The notes under the pieces: generated by a model
What the model was told of the DNA's origin: nothing
What the model saw: the letters and a program-made list of their open reading frames with translations, nothing else
Database searches by the model: none
NCBI RefSeq assembly: GCF_008728965.1
Contig: NZ_VSMC01000001.1
Span: forward strand, 245,511 to 309,510
Reading direction: 5' to 3'
Length of the DNA: 64,000 bases
Source of the DNA: Heminiphilus faecis
GTDB lineage: Bacteria; Bacteroidota; Bacteroidia; Bacteroidales; Muribaculaceae
Made by a program: the position numbers and the translations under genes
Shown here: positions 6,764 to 58,934 of the stretch, one piece after another
Layout of the letters: each line of letters starts with the position of its first letter
How positions within the stretch are numbered: position 1 is the first letter of the stretch

Positions 6764-7213
6764 ATGGATCTCTTTGACAAAATCAGCGCCGACATCAAAT
6801 CGGCCATGCTTGCAAAAGACCGCGTGCGTCTTGAGACTCTGCGCGGCATTAAGAAAGAGTTTTTGGAGGCCAAGACCGCACCGGGAGCCGACGGCATACT
6901 TAGTGACGACAACGCCCTGAAGATACTTGTTAAAATGGTGAAACAGCGCAAAGAAAGCGCCGAGATATATCAGAGCCAGAACAGAGCCGACCTTGCCGGC
7001 GACGAACTTGCCCAAGCCGCCGTAATCGAAGAGTACCTCCCCAAACAGCTGTCTGACGAAGAGCTCACCGAGGAGTTGCGCAAGATTATAGCGCAGACAG
7101 GCGCCACCTCGCCCAAAGAGATGGGCAAGGTCATGGGCGTAGCCTCAAAAGCGCTTGCAGGACGAGCCGACGGACGCGCCATTTCCGCCAAAGTAAAAGA
7201 ACTGCTGGCTTAA
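6764..7213 (+). CDS. GatB/YqeY domain protein
   Basis: 149 residues, the standard size of stand-alone YqeY-like proteins. It starts MDLFDKISADIKSAMLAKD, has the family's KMVKQRKESAEIYQ region (about 65-80), and ends with the helical tail found at the C-terminus of GatB (YLPKQLSDEEL, SPKEMGKVMG, GRADGRAISAKVKELL). The tail resembles the tRNA-contacting domain of the amidotransferase. The precise role of the free-standing form is not established. It sits 25 bp upstream of serS in the same direction, consistent with a translation-linked operon. Confidence 0.93.
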   Translation: MDLFDKISADIKSAMLAKDRVRLETLRGIKKEFLEAKTAPGADGILSDDNALKILVKMVKQRKESAEIYQSQNRADLAGDELAQAAVIEEYLPKQLSDEELTEELRKIIAQTGATSPKEMGKVMGVASKALAGRADGRAISAKVKELLA

Positions 7214-7238
7214 CGAACCTCTCAAAACCAATAAACCG

Positions 7239-8510
7239 ATGCTTACCATACAGCAAATAAAAGAAGATCCCCGACGCATAGTCGAGCGTCTTGCAGTGAA
7301 AGGCTATGACGGTACTGTGACCATACAACAGGTCATAGACCTCGACTCCCGACGCCGTCAGGCACAGTTGACCAACGACAACAAAGCGGCAGAGCTCAAC
7401 CGTCTCGCCGCATCGATAGGCAAGCTCATGAAGGAAGGCAACAAGGAAGAGGCCGAAAAAGCCAAAGCCGCAGTAGCTGCCCTGAAAGAGGAGCAGAAAG
7501 CCATAGCCGACGAGCTATCAGGCATAGAGGCCGAGATTCGCAACATACTCCTGTCGATACCCAACGTGCCCTGCGACATGGTGCCCGAAGGCAAGACAGC
7601 CGAAGACAACGTTGTGGAAAGTACCGGCGGCCCCATGCCCGACCTTCCCGCCGACGCCCTTCCCCACTGGGATCTCGCCAAGAAGTACAACCTCATCGAC
7701 TTCGACCTCGGTGTAAAGATAACAGGAGCCGGATTCCCCGTATACATCGGCAAGGGCGCACGTCTGCAGCGCGCTCTTATCCAGTTCTTCCTCGACGAAG
7801 CGGGTAAATCCGGATACCTCGAGATACAGCCCCCTTACGTTGTCAACGAAGCTTCGGGCTACGGCACAGGCCAGCTCCCCGACAAAGAGGGTCAGATGTA
7901 CTATATCAACGAAGACAATCTATATCTCATACCCACCGCCGAGGTACCGGTCACCAACCTATACCGCGACGTCATACTCAACGCATCGCAGCTCCCCATA
8001 AAGAACTGCGCTTACTCGGCATGCTTCCGCCGTGAAGCCGGCAGCTACGGCAAAGACGTGCGCGGACTCAACCGCCTGCATCAGTTTGACAAGGTGGAGA
8101 TAGTGCGCATCGAGCGCCCCGAGGACTCCTATGCCGCCCTCGAGGAGATGAAAGCCCATGTACAGGGCCTGCTTGACAAGCTCGGACTCCCGTGGCACAT
8201 ACTGCGGCTGTGCGGAGGCGACATGTCGTTCACCTCGGCCATAACTTTTGACTTCGAGGTGTTCTCGGCCGCGCAGAAACGCTGGCTCGAAGTGTCGTCG
8301 GTATCCAATTTCGAGACATATCAGGCCAATCGCCTGAAGTGCCGTTACCGCGGCGACGACAAGAAAACCCGCCTGTGCCATACCCTCAACGGCTCTGCTC
8401 TCGCACTGCCGCGCATCATGGCCGCTCTTCTTGAAAACAACCAGACCCCCGAGGGCATCATAGTCCCCGAGGTACTGCGCCGCTATACCGGCTTCGATAT
8501 AATCGACTGA
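7239..8510 (+). CDS. serS: Seryl-tRNA synthetase
   Basis: 423 residues, the normal length. The N-terminal part (about 30-100) is the long antiparallel coiled coil that grips the long variable arm of tRNA-Ser (rich in Lys/Glu/Ala). The class II core follows: the motif 2 region ACFRREAGSYGKDVRGLNRLHQFDK (quoted in part: ACFRREAGSYGKD) and motif 3 LNGSALALPRIMAALLE near the C-terminus. ATG at 7239, 25 bp after the YqeY-like gene. An intrinsic terminator follows at 8548. Confidence 0.98.
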   Translation: MLTIQQIKEDPRRIVERLAVKGYDGTVTIQQVIDLDSRRRQAQLTNDNKAAELNRLAASIGKLMKEGNKEEAEKAKAAVAALKEEQKAIADELSGIEAEIRNILLSIPNVPCDMVPEGKTAEDNVVESTGGPMPDLPADALPHWDLAKKYNLIDFDLGVKITGAGFPVYIGKGARLQRALIQFFLDEAGKSGYLEIQPPYVVNEASGYGTGQLPDKEGQMYYINEDNLYLIPTAEVPVTNLYRDVILNASQLPIKNCAYSACFRREAGSYGKDVRGLNRLHQFDKVEIVRIERPEDSYAALEEMKAHVQGLLDKLGLPWHILRLCGGDMSFTSAITFDFEVFSAAQKRWLEVSSVSNFETYQANRLKCRYRGDDKKTRLCHTLNGSALALPRIMAALLENNQTPEGIIVPEVLRRYTGFDIID

Positions 8511-8895: not shown

Positions 8896-9798
8896 ATGAA
8901 CAACAATATCCTCGACATATCAGGTCTTGCCCACATAAAGAGCATAGCCACCGACTTCAGCAACTACGAAAACCGCTACATATACGCCTATATCTCCGCC
9001 CCGGCGCGCGCCACCCATGCCATAACCGACATAGGCAGCATCGACGGCTTCTGCATCATGATCGTAAAGTCAGGACTGGGAGCCATCGAGGTCAATACGG
9101 AGACCTTTGACGTAGCGCCCGAGTCGCTCGTCATCATAGGCCCTAACCACTTCGTAAAAGCCGTCACCAACGAACGCCAGCCCCTTGATGTGGCTCTGCT
9201 GTTAATATCGCGCGAGTTCATGTACGACATAAACCTTGACCTCAACGTCATCAACATGAAAGTGCTTACGTTCAGCCATGCTCCTACAGTACCGGTCGAC
9301 TCTCGGGCATGCCGCATGCTGCGGAGCATGTTTGAGTCGCTCCACCTCGCCGCACTTGAAGCTGACGGAAATCCTTACACCAAGAGCATAGCGCGCAATC
9401 TGCTCGCCGCACTCTTCTATGAGCTGCTCAACATAGGCACCCGCATCACAGCCGGCAGCACCTTGTCTGCCTCACAAAGCCGTCGAGTGGCTTATGTACA
9501 TAAGTTTCTCGACTTGGTGAGCCGTCATCACTGTCAGGAGCGCTCAGTGAAGTACTATGCCGAAAAAATGTTTATCACCCCAAAATACCTGTCGGTGCTC
9601 ATACGCGAGGCCACAGGACACAGCGCCGTGGACTGGATAGACCAGTATGTCATACTCGAGGCAAAAAACATGCTGCGCTACTCCGGCAAAAACATACAGC
9701 AGATAGCCTACGATCTTAACTTCAGCAATCAGTCGGCCTTCGGAAAATACTTCAAAAACATCACCGGAGTATCGCCATCTGAATTTCGTCATTCATAA
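8896..9798 (+). CDS. AraC-family transcriptional regulator
   Basis: 300 residues. The C-terminal ~100 residues form the double helix-turn-helix: first HTH around VKYYAEKMFITPKYLSVLIRE, second around IQQIAYDLNFSNQSAFGKYFK, ending with the family signature ITGVSPSEFR. The N-terminal half has the strand-rich pattern of a cupin-like sensing domain, but no ligand can be named. It stands alone after the REP element. The upstream 70 bp is AT-rich, with no clear -7 box. The next gene starts 101 bp downstream behind its own distinctive promoter. It could regulate either neighbour or a distant locus. Confidence 0.92.
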   Translation: MNNNILDISGLAHIKSIATDFSNYENRYIYAYISAPARATHAITDIGSIDGFCIMIVKSGLGAIEVNTETFDVAPESLVIIGPNHFVKAVTNERQPLDVALLLISREFMYDINLDLNVINMKVLTFSHAPTVPVDSRACRMLRSMFESLHLAALEADGNPYTKSIARNLLAALFYELLNIGTRITAGSTLSASQSRRVAYVHKFLDLVSRHHCQERSVKYYAEKMFITPKYLSVLIREATGHSAVDWIDQYVILEAKNMLRYSGKNIQQIAYDLNFSNQSAFGKYFKNITGVSPSEFRHS

Positions 9799-9830: not shown

Positions 9831-9873
9831 GCCCGATTATACATAAAAACCGCCCTTCCGTGCTGTAACTTTG
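9831..9873 (+). promoter_or_regulatory. Promoter of the phage-like cluster, with a 20-bp element shared with the promoter at 58376
   Basis: GCCCGATTATACATAAAAAC (9831-9850) followed 15 bp later by the -7 box TAACTTTG (9866-9873) and CGG. At 58376-58418 the same element occurs with one mismatch, exactly the same spacing (35 bp start to start), and again TATCTTTGCGG. No ordinary -33 TTTG is present, so the element replaces or overlaps that position. It is probably the site of a specific activator or alternative sigma factor. Confidence 0.65.
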
Positions 9874-9898: not shown

Positions 9899-12229
9899 AT
9901 GAAAAACACCGACATTTCGATAACACCCGCTCTGCCTGAAGCAGGTGACTCCTCGACCATCGTGATAAACATGCGCAACCGCAACGGTCGTCTTGTACCA
10001 GCCATGGACTCCCCGCCGGCAAGCGATGTGGCGGCCGAGTATACGCATACCGACGGCTCCCGGTCGGTATTTACCATTAATGACCGTGAAGTCGTCGTAT
10101 CGCGCGGCGGCTCCGACACATTATTGGGTACTCTGCCCGCCGACTTCAGGTGTGCGGCAGTCACAGCACGCTCAATCCTGTTCATGACCGATGCAGGACC
10201 GTGGCATGTCGATTACAACGAGGCTGCCGACAGTTTCACCGCACTCGGTACGAAACCGGAGTTTCCTCCTGTGGTCATAGAAGCCGCCGATGCCGGCGAG
10301 TATCATGTCATAGCTCCGGCGTGCCGGCTCGACCGGCCCGTGGAACGCTGGCCGGGCACACTCTCCGCCACCGACAGCCGGCGCATAACCTTTGCGCTCT
10401 ATTCGGCATATAACAGGGCGGCTGTCAAAGCTTCGTCGGCCGGTTGCTTTACGGCACCCGTGCTTGTATGGTACCGCATAACCGATGCCTCAGGCAATAC
10501 ACTTCACCGTTCGTCGCCGGTAATGCTTGCTCCTGCCGAAGAATACCGCCCTCCCCGGGCGGTTATAAAACTCTCCTCAGGCGATGGCGGCTATACCCAT
10601 GTCCTTGCCGGTCAGGTAAGCGTCAGAGCCTTCTCGATAGCTATGCGTATAGCCGCAGTGCCCGACTCCTCTTGGGCCCGTAAGGCGGCTGCTGTCGAGG
10701 TGTATGTATCACCGGCACTGGCTGTCGTCGATGCCGGTGCTGACGCGTCATTCGACTTCGGTGACGCCGATGGCTCGTACGGCACGGTCACCGCCACCCT
10801 GCCGCTGAAACACACTCCCGCACTCGCAACACTGCCGGTCATCGACAGGCTCGAAACCGCATGCCGGTGCATAGCCCGTATAAGCGATCCGTTTACGGGC
10901 GGTGTGCCGGTTATGCCGGAAGCCGCGCGCAGACTCGCCTTTATGAATTATGACACCGGTGCCGGTCTCGCCTCAGTCATGCGTAAAGACCCCGGTATGT
11001 ATCCGCCACTCAAGGGCGCCGTTGAAGCGCCCCATTCGTTCGCGGCCCGCACGGCACTCGTCACCGGCGACATGCTTGTGTGGGCCGACATAACACCTGT
11101 AAGGGCACTCCCGCAGTCACCTCTCGTCAGGGCCGTAAAAAGCATACCAGCCATGGCATGGACATCCGTGACAAGAGTGACACTGCGTCATGACGACGGT
11201 ACCGAGGAGATTGTATCGTCCATACACTCCGGAAGCGGCAACGCACCACTCCGGCTCAGCCCTCTGACAGCCTATCCGCATCCGGCGGCAATAAGAATGG
11301 AGCTCGGAGTAAGCTATGCCGACGGCACTCACCGCCACATCGACATACCGCTGTCGCCTTCACCGTGCCGGCGCATGGCCTGTCATCTTTCCGACAACTG
11401 CGCCCATATGGACCTTGAGCCCTGCGAAGAACCCCTCGCGCCCCTCTCTGCAGGACATCCGCCGCGGCTTGCCGGCACAGTGCTCGCGGCCTCGCCCTCA
11501 TCGCCCGTCGACATCGACTCAACGGCCGAAATAACATGCGGGCGCATCACGGCTGTCACTCCGGCCGCCAAGTCGTCAAGCGCATGGGACTTTGCACGGC
11601 GCCATCTTTATGTCTTTTCAGTCAACGGCATCTACGCACTCTCGGTCAACGCCTCGCGCACTCTGTCATCGGCCCACATCATCGACCGGCGGGGAGTCGG
11701 TGACGCCCGGAAAGTGGCCGTGACACCCGACGGAGTATATGCCTCGGCCCTTGACGACACACTGCTGCGCATAACCGCATCCAAGACAGCCGCACTTATG
11801 TCGCGGTGCAGGGCTCGACATCTTGTCTACCGGCCCGGACTGCAGGAATTGTGGTGTCTTATGCCCGACGGCCGCTGGCTTGTGCTTGACAGCGACAGGT
11901 GTGTACGGTACCACGACGGCTCCCGCACGGTCAGCTACGCGACAACGTTTGCCCTGCCCGGACAGAGGCCTCGCTCTGTCGGAGCGGTCACATGGCGTGT
12001 GAGGGCCGATGACTGCCGTCTGCGCGCCGCAGTCGAGAGCGACAACGGTTCTCGACGCCCGGCCCTCATAAACGCACTTAATGCTGCCGAGGCAGTGCAC
12101 GCCCCGCTCCGTGCCCGCATAGTCACCCGGCCTGTGAGGAGTGTCACCCTGCGGCTATCGGGCAGTGCCGACGAGTCTATGCAACTTGAAGAAATCATAT
12201 TGACACTTTTATCATGGACCGGTCACTGA
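9899..12229 (+). CDS. Large unknown protein of the phage-like cluster
   Basis: 776 residues, no signal peptide or membrane segment. The N-terminus holds a short motif NMRNRNGRLVPAMDSPP, followed by many short beta-strand-like repeats; the C-terminal part (about 550-680) contains propeller-like stretches (DFARRHLYVFSVNGIYALSV, KVAVTPDGVYASALDDTLLRI, LVYRPGLQELWCLMPDGRWLVL). I recognise no catalytic motif. Its stop overlaps the terminase start by 16 bp, so the two are translationally coupled. Next to a terminase this could be a neck, tail or DNA-stabilising structural protein, but that is inference from context and predicted beta structure only. Confidence 0.7.
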   Translation: MKNTDISITPALPEAGDSSTIVINMRNRNGRLVPAMDSPPASDVAAEYTHTDGSRSVFTINDREVVVSRGGSDTLLGTLPADFRCAAVTARSILFMTDAGPWHVDYNEAADSFTALGTKPEFPPVVIEAADAGEYHVIAPACRLDRPVERWPGTLSATDSRRITFALYSAYNRAAVKASSAGCFTAPVLVWYRITDASGNTLHRSSPVMLAPAEEYRPPRAVIKLSSGDGGYTHVLAGQVSVRAFSIAMRIAAVPDSSWARKAAAVEVYVSPALAVVDAGADASFDFGDADGSYGTVTATLPLKHTPALATLPVIDRLETACRCIARISDPFTGGVPVMPEAARRLAFMNYDTGAGLASVMRKDPGMYPPLKGAVEAPHSFAARTALVTGDMLVWADITPVRALPQSPLVRAVKSIPAMAWTSVTRVTLRHDDGTEEIVSSIHSGSGNAPLRLSPLTAYPHPAAIRMELGVSYADGTHRHIDIPLSPSPCRRMACHLSDNCAHMDLEPCEEPLAPLSAGHPPRLAGTVLAASPSSPVDIDSTAEITCGRITAVTPAAKSSSAWDFARRHLYVFSVNGIYALSVNASRTLSSAHIIDRRGVGDARKVAVTPDGVYASALDDTLLRITASKTAALMSRCRARHLVYRPGLQELWCLMPDGRWLVLDSDRCVRYHDGSRTVSYATTFALPGQRPRSVGAVTWRVRADDCRLRAAVESDNGSRRPALINALNAAEAVHAPLRARIVTRPVRSVTLRLSGSADESMQLEEIILTLLSWTGH

Positions 12230-14100
12230 CACACATAATCGATGAAAACACCCGCCGCAACACACTCCTTTCTGCTCCCTATGACCAGTTGTCAGGCACA
12301 GGCTGCTGCGGCAGGAGAGTGAAGACTCTTTCACCCGGCGGCGAAACGGTGTGGGTGCCGCAGTCCATGCTCGACGATGCCGACATAGAAGCCGCCTCAC
12401 GCGACGAGCGGCTATGGAGGCTGCTGCGGGTGCGCCATGACTTCGAGTACTGGGCGGCCGCATGCGTCACCGTAAAGGACAAGCTGACGGGACGCGACGT
12501 TAAATTCATGCTCAACCGCCCGCAGCGGCGCGTGGTGGCTCTGCTTGAGGAGCAACGTTGCGCGGGACTCCCCGTAAGGGTTATAATGCTGAAAGCCCGG
12601 CAGTGGGGAGGCTCTACGCTCGTACAGATGTATATGGCGTGGATTCAGTGCTGCCGCGCACGCAACTGGCACTCTCTCATCTGTGCTCATGTCAAGGACG
12701 TGGCAGCCACGATAAGAGGCATATACTCCAAGATGCTCGACGCCTATCCCCCCGAGTTCTGGGACGAGGAGCAGCAGCCGGGCTTCACTGCCTTCGAACG
12801 CTCTATCAACACCCGTCTCATACGTGGACGCGACTGCCGCGTGACAGTGGCGTCGAGCGAGCGTCAGGAGTCGGTGCGAGGTGCTGATGTGGCCATGGCC
12901 CACCTGAGCGAAGTGGCATTCTGGGCCGATACCCCATCACGCACTCCCGAAGGCTTCGTAAGAGCCATCTGTGCCGGCATAGCGAGAGTGCCGGAGAGCC
13001 TTGTGGTGCTCGAAAGCACAGCCAACGGCGTGGGCAATTACTTTCACTCCGAGTGGTTGCGTTCCAAACGTGGCGAGAGCGACAAGACAGCCATCTTCGT
13101 GCCGTGGTATGAGATAGACATTTACTCTGCCGCCGTCAATGACTACGGCAAGTTATGGATGTCGCTCGACTCATATGAAAAGTCACTTTGGGAGCGCGGA
13201 TGCACGCTCGAGCAGATAGCTTGGTACAAAGACAAACGACGCGAGTATCCTACGGCGGCACTTATGGCCGCTGAGTTTCCTACCGACGATATAGAGGCCT
13301 TTGCCAATACCGGTCAAGGTGTGTTCACTCTCGGTCAGGTGGAGCGCATGCGCGGATCGTGTATACCGCCCGCGGCTGTAGGAAGACTCGTTGCACAATC
13401 TGCCAAAGGCTACGGCGCACTGAATATCGACGGCTTCCGCGATGACCCCAACGGCTTGCTGAAAGTATGGCGGTTTCCGGAAAAGTCGCCGGCATGCCGG
13501 AACCGTTATGTGGCGGCTGTCGACATAGGCGGACGCTCAGAAGGCAGCGACTACACTGTCATATCGGTACTTGACGCGCTCGGCACTGAAGGCACCCCCG
13601 AGATAGCGGCTCAATGGCGAGGCCATGGCGACCACGACATAGTGGCATGGACCGCAGCGTCCATAGCCCAGTGGTATTGCGAGGCCCTGCTCGTCATCGA
13701 GAGCAACTCGCTTGAATCATCATCTACGGGAGGCGAACACGGCCTGTACGTGCTCTCCGAGCTGAACCACGTGTACCGCAATCTGTATAGGCGGCGTATA
13801 ACCGACTCCGTGAGCACAGGCTATGAGACACGGGTGGGCTTTCACACCAACCGGGCCACAAAGGCCATGATTATAAACCATCTTATAGCCATGGTCAGGG
13901 ATGACGGCTACATCGAACGTGACTTTGACGCCTGCGACGAGCTCGCCGTATACGAGAGCGACCCGTCGGGACGCTTCGGAGCTAAAGCCGGATATCACGA
14001 CGACATACTCATGACAAGAGCCATAGCCCTCTATGCTGCCTCACAATATCCGCCGGCCATTGTGGAGCATACACGCTTCCGCCGCAAATTCCGTTTTTGA
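12214..14100 (+). CDS. Phage-type terminase large subunit, apparently intact
   Basis: 628 residues with the parts of a packaging motor. The ATPase has a Walker A-like KARQWGGSTL (127-136), and a Walker B region AMAHLSEVAFW (about 227-237) with catalytic Glu233. The RuvC-like nuclease has Asp437 in AVDIGG, Glu496 in LVIESNSL and Asp596/Asp597 in GYHDDILMTRA. In phages this enzyme cuts concatemeric DNA and pumps it into the prohead. No small terminase subunit, portal, protease or capsid gene lies nearby. The start overlaps the preceding gene. All catalytic positions are present, arguing against simple decay; the cluster may be a domesticated or satellite-type remnant. Confidence 0.85.
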   Translation: MDRSLTHIIDENTRRNTLLSAPYDQLSGTGCCGRRVKTLSPGGETVWVPQSMLDDADIEAASRDERLWRLLRVRHDFEYWAAACVTVKDKLTGRDVKFMLNRPQRRVVALLEEQRCAGLPVRVIMLKARQWGGSTLVQMYMAWIQCCRARNWHSLICAHVKDVAATIRGIYSKMLDAYPPEFWDEEQQPGFTAFERSINTRLIRGRDCRVTVASSERQESVRGADVAMAHLSEVAFWADTPSRTPEGFVRAICAGIARVPESLVVLESTANGVGNYFHSEWLRSKRGESDKTAIFVPWYEIDIYSAAVNDYGKLWMSLDSYEKSLWERGCTLEQIAWYKDKRREYPTAALMAAEFPTDDIEAFANTGQGVFTLGQVERMRGSCIPPAAVGRLVAQSAKGYGALNIDGFRDDPNGLLKVWRFPEKSPACRNRYVAAVDIGGRSEGSDYTVISVLDALGTEGTPEIAAQWRGHGDHDIVAWTAASIAQWYCEALLVIESNSLESSSTGGEHGLYVLSELNHVYRNLYRRRITDSVSTGYETRVGFHTNRATKAMIINHLIAMVRDDGYIERDFDACDELAVYESDPSGRFGAKAGYHDDILMTRAIALYAASQYPPAIVEHTRFRRKFRF

Positions 14101-14185
14101 CCATAAGCTCCTCACAACAGACTCTTAACTCCTCCGTTAACCATATTTAACAGTCGTGTGCTTGTATTACGCCCATACTATGTTG

Positions 14186-14193
14186 TATATTTG
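14186..14193 (+). promoter_or_regulatory. -7 box upstream of the 14228 gene
   Basis: TATATTTG matches TAnnTTTG, 35 bp before the ATG. The 127-bp gap after the terminase therefore seems to hold a second promoter for the two small genes. Confidence 0.5.
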
Positions 14194-14227
14194 CATTGTA
14201 TTTTAACCACAAATATTTATCGATACA

Positions 14228-14704
14228 ATGAGAACACACATTTTTTACAGTACCCGCGACCACGATTTTTTAGAAGCATGTCAATCGGTACTTAAACAGA
14301 ATCCTGACAGGCAATTTGACTCGCTGCTGGCTCTGTCGATTGCCGTGTCGCGTAGTCAGGCTCCCTCTTACTATGTCGAACCTGACTACGCATACAGGAT
14401 CGTTCTCGCCATAAGGCGTAACGGCGGCATAAAAGGTACGGGCACGACACAGATGAAATGGGCCGAATTTTACCGCAAAGTCATGACACGAATGAAGCGC
14501 CGTAAGGGAGAGTCGCTTCGCGATGCCGTCATACATGTGGCCGCTTTCGAGCCGGCTGGCTCATTCTTCATATCACCGGAGTGCGGAGCCAAAATCCTGC
14601 GCACCCATCTTCGCCGCCGCACATGCGCCCTTACCACGCTCTTGTCCCCGGCTCTGGTCATCCGCAGCACACGCCGTAGATTTCGTCACAACATAAAACA
14701 TTAA
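14228..14704 (+). CDS. Small basic protein of unknown function with an internal repeat (phage-like cluster)
   Basis: 158 residues, strongly basic at the C-terminus (Arg/His-rich after residue 125). Two similar segments are visible. The first, near residue 40, reads SLLALSIAV then PSYYVEPDYAYRIV; the second, near residue 95, reads SLRDAVIHV then GSFFISPECGAKIL. The shared pattern is SL-x5-V then a short gap, aromatic-aromatic-(V/I)-x-P-(D/E). This looks like an internal duplication. No signal peptide and no family recognised. Preceded by its own -7 box and followed 19 bp later by another small unknown gene. Codon use is like its neighbours. Confidence 0.65.
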   Translation: MRTHIFYSTRDHDFLEACQSVLKQNPDRQFDSLLALSIAVSRSQAPSYYVEPDYAYRIVLAIRRNGGIKGTGTTQMKWAEFYRKVMTRMKRRKGESLRDAVIHVAAFEPAGSFFISPECGAKILRTHLRRRTCALTTLLSPALVIRSTRRRFRHNIKH

Positions 14705-14723
14705 CAGTAAAGCCATAACCATC

Positions 14724-15185
14724 ATGAATTCATCACATCAGGAAGTAGCAATAGTGCTCGACTACTCCGACATGGCCCGTGACATATATGCGGCCTCGGC
14801 ATTGCACAGCTATCTTTCACCCGAAGACAAGCCGCTTCCCCCTATGATTGTGCCCGACAACGAGCAGGCTCTCGTTCCTGCCTTGAAAAGCGCGTTCATA
14901 TTCACATCACTGAATATGCTGCCTCTCATAGCCGACATAGACCTGAACGACGACCACGGCATAAACCTGACGCTGAAGGTAAACACCGATACGGCCCGGC
15001 GCAAACTCGACCTGCTGCGCCATACCCTGCGCGATGCGGTAGTGGCATATGCCATGCACACATGTTGCCTCGGCATCGACGACACCATGTCGCAGCGATA
15101 CCGCGCCACGGCTCTGTCGGCCGTAGCCGCACTCAACATGCTATGCTCCACTCCGGCGGTCATACGCATAAATCCTCATCGGTGA
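14724..15185 (+). CDS. Small protein of unknown function (phage-like cluster)
   Basis: 153 residues, acidic in the N-terminal half and mostly helical by composition. A charged segment DTARRKLDLLRHTLRDAVVAYAMH lies near residues 90-113 (quote shortened: RRKLDLLRHTLRDAVV). No signal peptide, no obvious motif. It starts 19 bp after the 14228 gene in the same direction, so the two are probably coexpressed. Its position after a terminase suggests a phage-derived structural or accessory protein, but the sequence alone does not show this. Confidence 0.6.
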   Translation: MNSSHQEVAIVLDYSDMARDIYAASALHSYLSPEDKPLPPMIVPDNEQALVPALKSAFIFTSLNMLPLIADIDLNDDHGINLTLKVNTDTARRKLDLLRHTLRDAVVAYAMHTCCLGIDDTMSQRYRATALSAVAALNMLCSTPAVIRINPHR

Positions 15186-57480: not shown

Positions 57481-57554
57481 GGTGCGTTAGTTCAGTTGGT
57501 TAGAATACATGCCTGTCACGCATGGGGTCACGGGTTCGAGTCCCGTACGCACCG
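57481..57554 (+). tRNA. tRNA-Asp (GTC)
   Basis: 74 nt with a full cloverleaf. Acceptor GGTGCGT/ACGCACC; anticodon stem CATGC/GCATG around the loop CTGTCAC with anticodon GTC at 57515-57517; T arm ACGGG-TTCGAGT-CCCGT; discriminator G. The CCA end is not encoded. Confidence 0.96.
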
Positions 57555-58375: not shown

Positions 58376-58418
58376 GCCCGATTATGCATAAAAACGGTGG
58401 CCTGTCATATTATCTTTG
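58376..58418 (+). promoter_or_regulatory. Promoter with the 20-bp element shared with the terminase cluster
   Basis: GCCCGATTATGCATAAAAAC (58376-58395), 15 bp, then the -7 box TATCTTTG (58411-58418) and CGG. One mismatch and no spacing change compared with 9831-9873. The lack of a -33 TTTG is also shared. Confidence 0.65.
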
Positions 58419-58451: not shown

Positions 58452-58934
58452 ATGAAACGCACGCCTAAATTTGATAGGGCATGGATCGAGTCCATAGCCA
58501 TGCTTCCCGCAGAACTTCAGCAGCCGCTTACCGATGCCATCAGGGAGTATCAGAAGACCGGTGCCGGTCCTGCCGGGCTGCATCCGATAGCACAATGCGT
58601 GTTCAATCTTCTTAAACCTGTGATAGACCGCCGGGCCAAGGCCGCGTCCTATCAGCGCCGTCGCCGCGAGGCCGCTGCTGGGGTGTACCGGGCACCCTCC
58701 GTCGTCGAAGCAGGTCGTCGTGTGAAGCAGGACCGTAAGTACATACGCCATCTTGCCAAACGCTGCAGCCTTACGCACGGTCAGCTCAAGTCGGAGGTCG
58801 ACCGTGTGTCGTCGCTGCTTGCCTGCAACGGCATAGACCGCATACCGCTCTTCCTGTACAAGGAGTACCTCGAACAGTACATAGCCGGCAATACGGCGCC
58901 CATGGTACCCGATGTGGGTAACTGTGCTACATAA
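58452..58934 (+). CDS. DUF6291-like phage-type protein
   Basis: 160 residues from the ATG at 58452; a longer reading from 58416 starts inside the -7 box and is rejected. The N-terminal 75 residues (WIESIAMLPAELQQPLTDAI then LHPIAQCVFNLLKPVIDRRAKA and an Arg-rich stretch) follow the pattern of DUF6291 proteins, found mostly in phages and mobile elements: a helical domain ending in IFxLIKPxID. The rest is basic, with GRRVKQDRKYIRHLAKRCSLTHGQLKSEVD, which may be a helix-turn-helix. A DNA-binding role is likely but unproven. Monocistronic, and sharing a promoter element with the terminase cluster. Confidence 0.7.
   Translation: MKRTPKFDRAWIESIAMLPAELQQPLTDAIREYQKTGAGPAGLHPIAQCVFNLLKPVIDRRAKAASYQRRRREAAAGVYRAPSVVEAGRRVKQDRKYIRHLAKRCSLTHGQLKSEVDRVSSLLACNGIDRIPLFLYKEYLEQYIAGNTAPMVPDVGNCAT

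Follow-up and report, generated by a model that had tools for sequence, protein, structure and literature searches.

In this study, we analysed a 64,000-nt stretch of the Heminiphilus faecis genome (hereafter the window) around a gene for the large subunit of a phage terminase (TerL). Four forward-strand ORFs lie there, at the coordinates that an initial annotation of the sequence had given them: a 776-aa predicted tail hub/nozzle protein of podovirus type related to gp26 of phage BS-TP4 (9899..12229), the 628-aa TerL (12214..14100), whose ORF overlaps the preceding one by 16 nt, and ORFs of 158 aa (14228..14704) and 153 aa (14724..15185). A putative late promoter element, consisting of GCCCGATTATACATAAA, 18 nt and a TAACTTTG box (9831..9873, forward strand), is situated upstream of the tail hub/terminase operon. 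The second promoter proposed by the initial annotation for the two small genes was recovered as a separate promoter-like element, TTGTATTACGCCCATACTATGTTGTATATTTGCA (14162..14195, forward strand), which differs from the late element. The yqeY and serS genes flank the locus at 6764–8510, and an AraC gene lies upstream of the module at 8896–9798; the latter was considered as a dedicated regulator and rejected, as it is not conserved beside the module in relatives. No integrase or tRNA is present at the locus or its edges, as had been noted, the sole tRNA in the window being at 57481, and no RNA family was found in the locus. None of the four proteins scored above the cut-offs of Pfam, NCBIfam or PADLOC, and a defence system was rejected on the PADLOC result. 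The normal composition ascribed to the region holds for the neighbouring genes but not for the block itself, whose GC content is 60–62% over 10–13 kb versus 52–55% just upstream.

TerL is matched by terminase profiles, the best being that of the terminase large subunit (phrog_2, 3.8e-18). Its ATPase and nuclease residues are all present, in agreement with the initial annotation: the ATPase motifs are a Walker A-type LKARQWGGST (residue 126), LSEVAFW (231) and ESTANG (from 267), and the nuclease motifs are VDIGG (436), VIESN (494) and HDD (595). Most of these are identical or near-identical in the TerL of a Bacteroides phage. The 776-aa gene is present in nearly the same genomes as TerL and evolves faster, with mostly 23–36% identity; its product gave an HMM match to phage BS-TP4 (1.8e-20). 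Structure prediction, which had been suggested for this protein, yielded from 34 sequences a model (pLDDT 88, pTM 0.81) with the beta-rich hub/nozzle fold of podovirus tail hubs. The best matches were tail proteins of SU10, crAss001, Pan3, Pam1, Sf6, P22 (gp10) and T7, and the top seven PDB matches were all phage tail proteins, with E-values down to 3e-10; DDB1-type beta-propellers occur lower in the list, and a propeller by itself is therefore not diagnostic. Judged by its modelled fold, that of SU10, crAss001 and P22 gp10, the 776-aa partner of TerL is a podovirus tail hub. Although the predicted fold resembles those of SU10 (7z4b), crAss001 (7qol), Pam1, Sf6 gp8 and P22 gp10, sequence identity to these proteins is 7–10% and TM-scores are 0.2–0.4 over multi-domain alignments, and it is therefore a relative rather than a member of any single known tail hub.

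The initial annotation described a terminase without capsid, portal or small subunit. This is true of the window locus but not of the genome: searches ruled out that the capsid, the portal and the small proteins are truly absent or orphan. An SU10-type capsid family has one match in the H. faecis genome, on contig C14, as well as in every TerL-bearing relative of that sample, and the portal was located beside it when that of Bacteroides phage BF1-TP2 served as the query. The C14 cluster encodes, in order, a scaffold-like protein (137 aa), the capsid (432 aa), an adaptor-like protein (176 aa), the portal (459 aa) and a lipoprotein-like protein (125 aa). Profiles of these proteins matched Bacteroides phages at about 1e-99 (capsid), 1e-118 to 1e-125 (portal), 1e-9 to 1e-4 (adaptor) and, weakly, 6e-7 (scaffold). 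Compared with its phage counterpart, the portal of the host is missing about 180 residues, mostly at the C end. In addition, a solitary phage-type endolysin of the M15 family with the late element is encoded about 11.6 kb beyond the window end (C23:321134; gene at C23:321140-321634, L314 11630-12124; PF08291, 1.1e-18). The related genome G012 has a lipoprotein similar to the 125-aa gene product behind its late element; in G248, a single-contig genome of a sister family, a holin (PF05105, 9.8e-8) and an endolysin (phrog_894, 2.5e-23) are encoded within the capsid module. In Muribaculaceae, where components were sought by query, neither a receptor-binding protein nor a fibre was identified, and fibre, holin and ejection proteins may have been missed. 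Two irregular capsid regions were observed: in G001 (L102 6966-9387) two opposite-strand genes, perhaps an insertion sequence, lie between the adaptor and capsid genes, and in one metagenome-assembled genome (G009; L105 4399-5620) the capsid gene is split by a frameshift, which may be an assembly error or mark a pseudogene. The picture of an isolated enzyme was thus too small, the remaining virion genes being kept elsewhere in the genome and apparently co-regulated.

Almost all complete Muribaculaceae genomes that were sampled have the gene set, as do genomes of six further families of Bacteroidales, and its genes usually occupy several distinct places on the chromosome. TerL was found in 21 of the 41 genomes searched, all of the family itself, at about 40–65% identity and mostly in one copy; none of the copies found has internal stops. 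Among 247 genomes of the order that were at least 90% complete, 18 have a TerL of this clade, and those outside Muribaculaceae belong to six families, most with two or three positive members. When good-quality genomes were then checked, the capsid was found in 22 of 22 and the portal in 21 of 22. One 99% complete genome (G018; L271) has the capsid and portal with no TerL detected, a possible loss of the system in that lineage.

The positions of the modules vary widely. On the 3.3-Mb contig of G012, TerL and the 158/153 pair lie at 2.73 and 2.83 Mb, and the capsid is far from both at 0.18 Mb. Even the tail hub and TerL pair is not fixed, since the two genes are 730 kb apart in G020 (TerL 1.56 Mb, tail hub 0.83 Mb, capsid 0.60 Mb) and on different contigs in G015 and G017. 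The genes flanking the module differ between most relatives, and the conserved synteny that the initial annotation had named as a sign of domestication was not seen within the family. In G016, from another genus, TerL with the tail hub, the capsid with the portal, and the 158/153 pair all lie within 14 kb, beside the same yqeY-serS genes as in the window, and most of the set is in one place at L172 and L198 as well; these compact sets point to one ancestral cluster that was dispersed later. In G248, G107, G051 and G233, about three modules are spread over 36–53 kb between other bacterial genes, with the same neighbour of 546–548 aa beside the capsid module. An additional phage-like copy is present in G149 and G230, its TerL, portal and capsid being within 7 kb in G149. 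Genuine prophages of the kin type exist separately, outside the host TerL clade. The block as the leftover end of a complete prophage, an origin that would have overturned the idea of domestication, was rejected because no relative examined shows it and the kin-type prophages fall outside the clade.

A TerL tree of 74 rows places the Muribaculaceae in a single clade (support 100) and the sister families in a second (99). These two clades are united (85) to the exclusion of the phages, and the rows of the genus itself cluster with one another (99). The tree was built by a quick method and includes some long phage branches, which leaves its root unsure. Pairwise distances of TerL, capsid and portal are correlated (r 0.85–0.92, Mantel p 0.0002), and in most of the genomes used for this test TerL is unlinked from the capsid and portal. 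Values of dN/dS (Nei-Gojobori, close pairs) are 0.03–0.21 for TerL, capsid, portal, adaptor, tail hub and the 158-aa gene. For TerL, for which the initial annotation had proposed a test of purifying selection, they are 0.06–0.18, and the gene is conserved family-wide. Together with the tail-hub fold of the 776-aa protein and the absence of prophage-end copies in the relatives examined, these data support the suggestion that the terminase has been selected for something other than prophage growth. The lack of an integrase at the window locus, the scattering of the genes and the low dN/dS are not those of a complete or remnant prophage.

In the H. faecis genome, the element GCCCGATTnTnCATAAA stands exactly 35 nt before a TAnnTTTG box ahead of both the tail hub (window 9831) and the C14 capsid operon, which share it with 14 other sites. 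These 16 sites have the fixed 35-nt spacing, and a reversed control gave 0. A different element, GACATTATGGGGTGAAATCCG, is common to both operons in G012 (20 sites, control 0, 35-nt spacing in 20 of 20), and further ones are common to the sister species G007/G010 and G006/G011. In six genomes the upstream regions of the two operons match each other with scores of 15–33, versus a mean of 10 for mismatched pairs, among which the high scores come mostly from these two sister-species pairs. A shared element was not seen in five of the 11 genomes tested, in some perhaps owing to an uncertain start of the capsid operon. The canonical Bacteroidales -33 TTTG box was not found at canonical spacing upstream of the H. 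faecis modules. Behind the element in both H. faecis and G012 are the tail hub (-TerL) operon, the capsid operon, the M15 endolysin and 11–13 copies of the DUF6291 family. The virion and lysis modules thus appear to be co-regulated through one species-specific element.

DUF6291-family members are small basic proteins. The genome-wide element search located a second copy of the element inside the window (58376..58418, forward strand), followed by a 160-aa DUF6291 protein (58452..58934, forward strand; PF19808, 3.2e-12). About 11 dispersed copies (the window copy and about 10 others, L299-L312) lie behind the late element in H. faecis, and 13 in G012, two of which, when tested, were below the PF19808 cut-off or gave no match. 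No DUF6291 relatives were found near phage or sister-family modules, and we infer the connection of this family with the virion gene set from the promoter only. A few weaker sites (e.g., L310, L313 and L297) may be due to chance; that at L310 (C45:36059), with one mismatch, lies about 270 nt upstream of a gene for a ribosomal protein S1-like protein and may reflect chance or host input.

The 158-aa and 153-aa genes travel together as a further movable module, the latter always beside the former in relatives, and the TTGTATTACGCCCATACTATGTTGTATATTTGCA promoter occurs once per genome in seven of the 10 species searched, each time at the 158-aa gene. The 158-aa protein is a homologue of the phage gene directly preceding TerL (HMM 4e-14 to 2e-5; hhalign E 2.9e-4, but with a probability of only 40). 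The position immediately upstream of TerL is the usual one of the small terminase in phages. In most hosts the 158-aa gene is not beside TerL, and the structure model of its product, which is helical but of low confidence (pLDDT 69), matched nothing in the PDB. The protein is a candidate small terminase or regulator. The pair would be a master regulator if judged by its own constant promoter and fast evolution only; the position of the gene in phages argues equally for a small terminase. In the sister families only, a conserved 83-aa gene just upstream of TerL (L260 2438-2689; L191 3397-3648) is another small-terminase candidate.

A near-complete virion set (terminase, portal, major capsid protein, scaffold, tail adaptor and tail hub), together with an endolysin and a spanin-like lipoprotein, is therefore intact, under selection and split over several loci. 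The locus is probably one module of a scattered, vertically inherited element resembling a gene transfer agent (GTA), domesticated from a short-tailed temperate Bacteroidales phage. A regulator recognizing the late element would switch on all modules together in some cells; small particles would assemble from the virion proteins, the terminase would fill them with cell DNA by a headful mechanism and with little preference for sequence, the endolysin would free the particles, and the short tail would hand the DNA to relatives. Particle formation, packaging of host DNA and its transfer are inferred from the gene set. Six published criteria define a GTA, including packaging of mostly random host DNA (PMC9662315). 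Two are experimental, and on the other four the genomic data agree with a GTA. TerL, portal, capsid, scaffold, adaptor and tail hub resemble proteins of Bacteroides phages, as expected of derivation from a tailed phage. The genes are fully endogenized at several loci, the modules being on separate contigs or divided by hundreds of kb. Judged by geometry, the element's own genes would lie too far apart to be packaged together in G012 and G020, where the loci are 0.2–1 Mb or more apart. Vertical inheritance and co-diversification with the hosts are indicated indirectly, by the family and genus clades of TerL and the agreement of unlinked genes rather than by a host marker tree. Counting against a GTA are the failure to identify a receptor-binding or fibre protein in Muribaculaceae, the portal, which is short by about 180 residues so that its function might be altered, the genome without a detected TerL, the one frameshifted capsid and the lack of promoter sharing in five of the 11 genomes.

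Some of these observations could be taken as marks of an old prophage in decay, its parts kept by chance: the genes are dispersed, the portal is shortened, TerL is missing from G018 and one capsid gene is frameshifted. Such decay is largely refuted by dN/dS of 0.03–0.21 across lineages, by the retention of the set in at least seven families and by a shared promoter element with fixed spacing, and we give it hardly any weight. It is also very unlikely that the modules are still parasitic and are carried about by phages that supply the missing functions, whether as a fragmented satellite or multipartite prophage or as a mobile family linked to DUF6291. Related phages do infect these bacteria, with prophage-like copies in G149, G230, G015 and G007, and the DUF6291 copies are dispersed, multicopy and behind the same promoter; however, no integrase or replication gene was seen with the modules read, there is one virion copy per genome, and the gene histories track each other and the family boundaries, as vertical inheritance predicts.

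More serious, though still unlikely, is exaptation of the virion genes for another host role, in which DNA-free or lytic particles would act against competitors or liberate cell contents, as a capsid-bearing bacteriocin or an altruistic lysis system, and TerL would be kept for particle maturation. The signs of selection and co-regulation speak for this as well, lysis genes are in the regulon, and no gene for DNA uptake or delivery was identified beyond the tail hub. Nevertheless, if no DNA were packaged it would be difficult to account for an intact TerL, complete with ATPase and nuclease motifs, and for the retention of the portal, and PADLOC gave no match for the four window proteins. We therefore favour the domesticated GTA. 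A wider form of this reading, which we put forward tentatively and as rather more doubtful than the GTA itself, is of an ancient GTA shared by Muribaculaceae, Barnesiella-type bacteria and other families of the order, which in Muribaculaceae was broken into small modules and held together as a regulon by a promoter element changing between species in step at 16–20 sites; the fast-evolving 158/153 pair, alone in having a constant promoter at a single site, would be its master switch and the multicopy DUF6291 proteins a new class of GTA accessory factor.

The closest viral relatives are the Bacteroides temperate phages BF1-TP2, BS-TP4 and BKO1-TP3 (PQ571263, PQ571277 and PQ571269), with TerL about 40% identical and matching capsid, portal, scaffold, adaptor and 158-aa-type genes, and a tail hub in BS-TP4. 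They differ in being complete phages of 64–68 kb that carry these genes in one genome along with much else, such as a giant protein of 3633–5391 aa, and their portal exceeds that of the host by about 180 residues. The TerL genes of BF1-TP2 (L072 20034-22061) and BS-TP4 (L073 20340-22436) are publicly annotated as 'tail spike protein', whereas the notes attached to them point to terminase. As in RcGTA of Rhodobacter capsulatus, the alphaproteobacterial type I GTA (PMC9662315), phage-derived virion and lysis genes are vertically inherited at several chromosomal loci and TerL forms a clade apart from phages. However, RcGTA descends from an unrelated phage ancestor, whereas the Bacteroidales set combines an SU10-type capsid with a podovirus tail hub and is arranged in smaller modules sharing a promoter element; RcGTA is proven to form particles and to transfer DNA, while the Bacteroidales set is known from genes alone. 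FpGTA of Faecalibacterium (PMC12946183), compared by description rather than sequence, is likewise from a gut commensal and has podovirus-like structural genes, two separate loci and lysis genes, but its host belongs to Bacillota, its two operons are compact (10.5 and 5.5 kb), and its particles, with about 9 kb of DNA, have been observed. That study of gut GTAs reports GTA-like packaging mainly in Bacillota (PMC12946183). Our literature search, with preprints and most subscription papers outside its scope, found no Bacteroidales GTA, so that priority is uncertain; the present one is possibly the first of its kind to be recognized in this order.

In summary, the promoter element allows the regulon to be read off the sequence by itself, and the function of the gene set is thus directly testable in cultured isolates. 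If the GTA reading is true, the set would be an independent case of phage domestication in which to test how GTAs arise, disperse and stay co-regulated. Muribaculaceae and Barnesiella-type bacteria are major gut residents, and a heritable particle system under common regulation, present in seven or more Bacteroidales families, would provide them with a standing route for chromosomal gene exchange.
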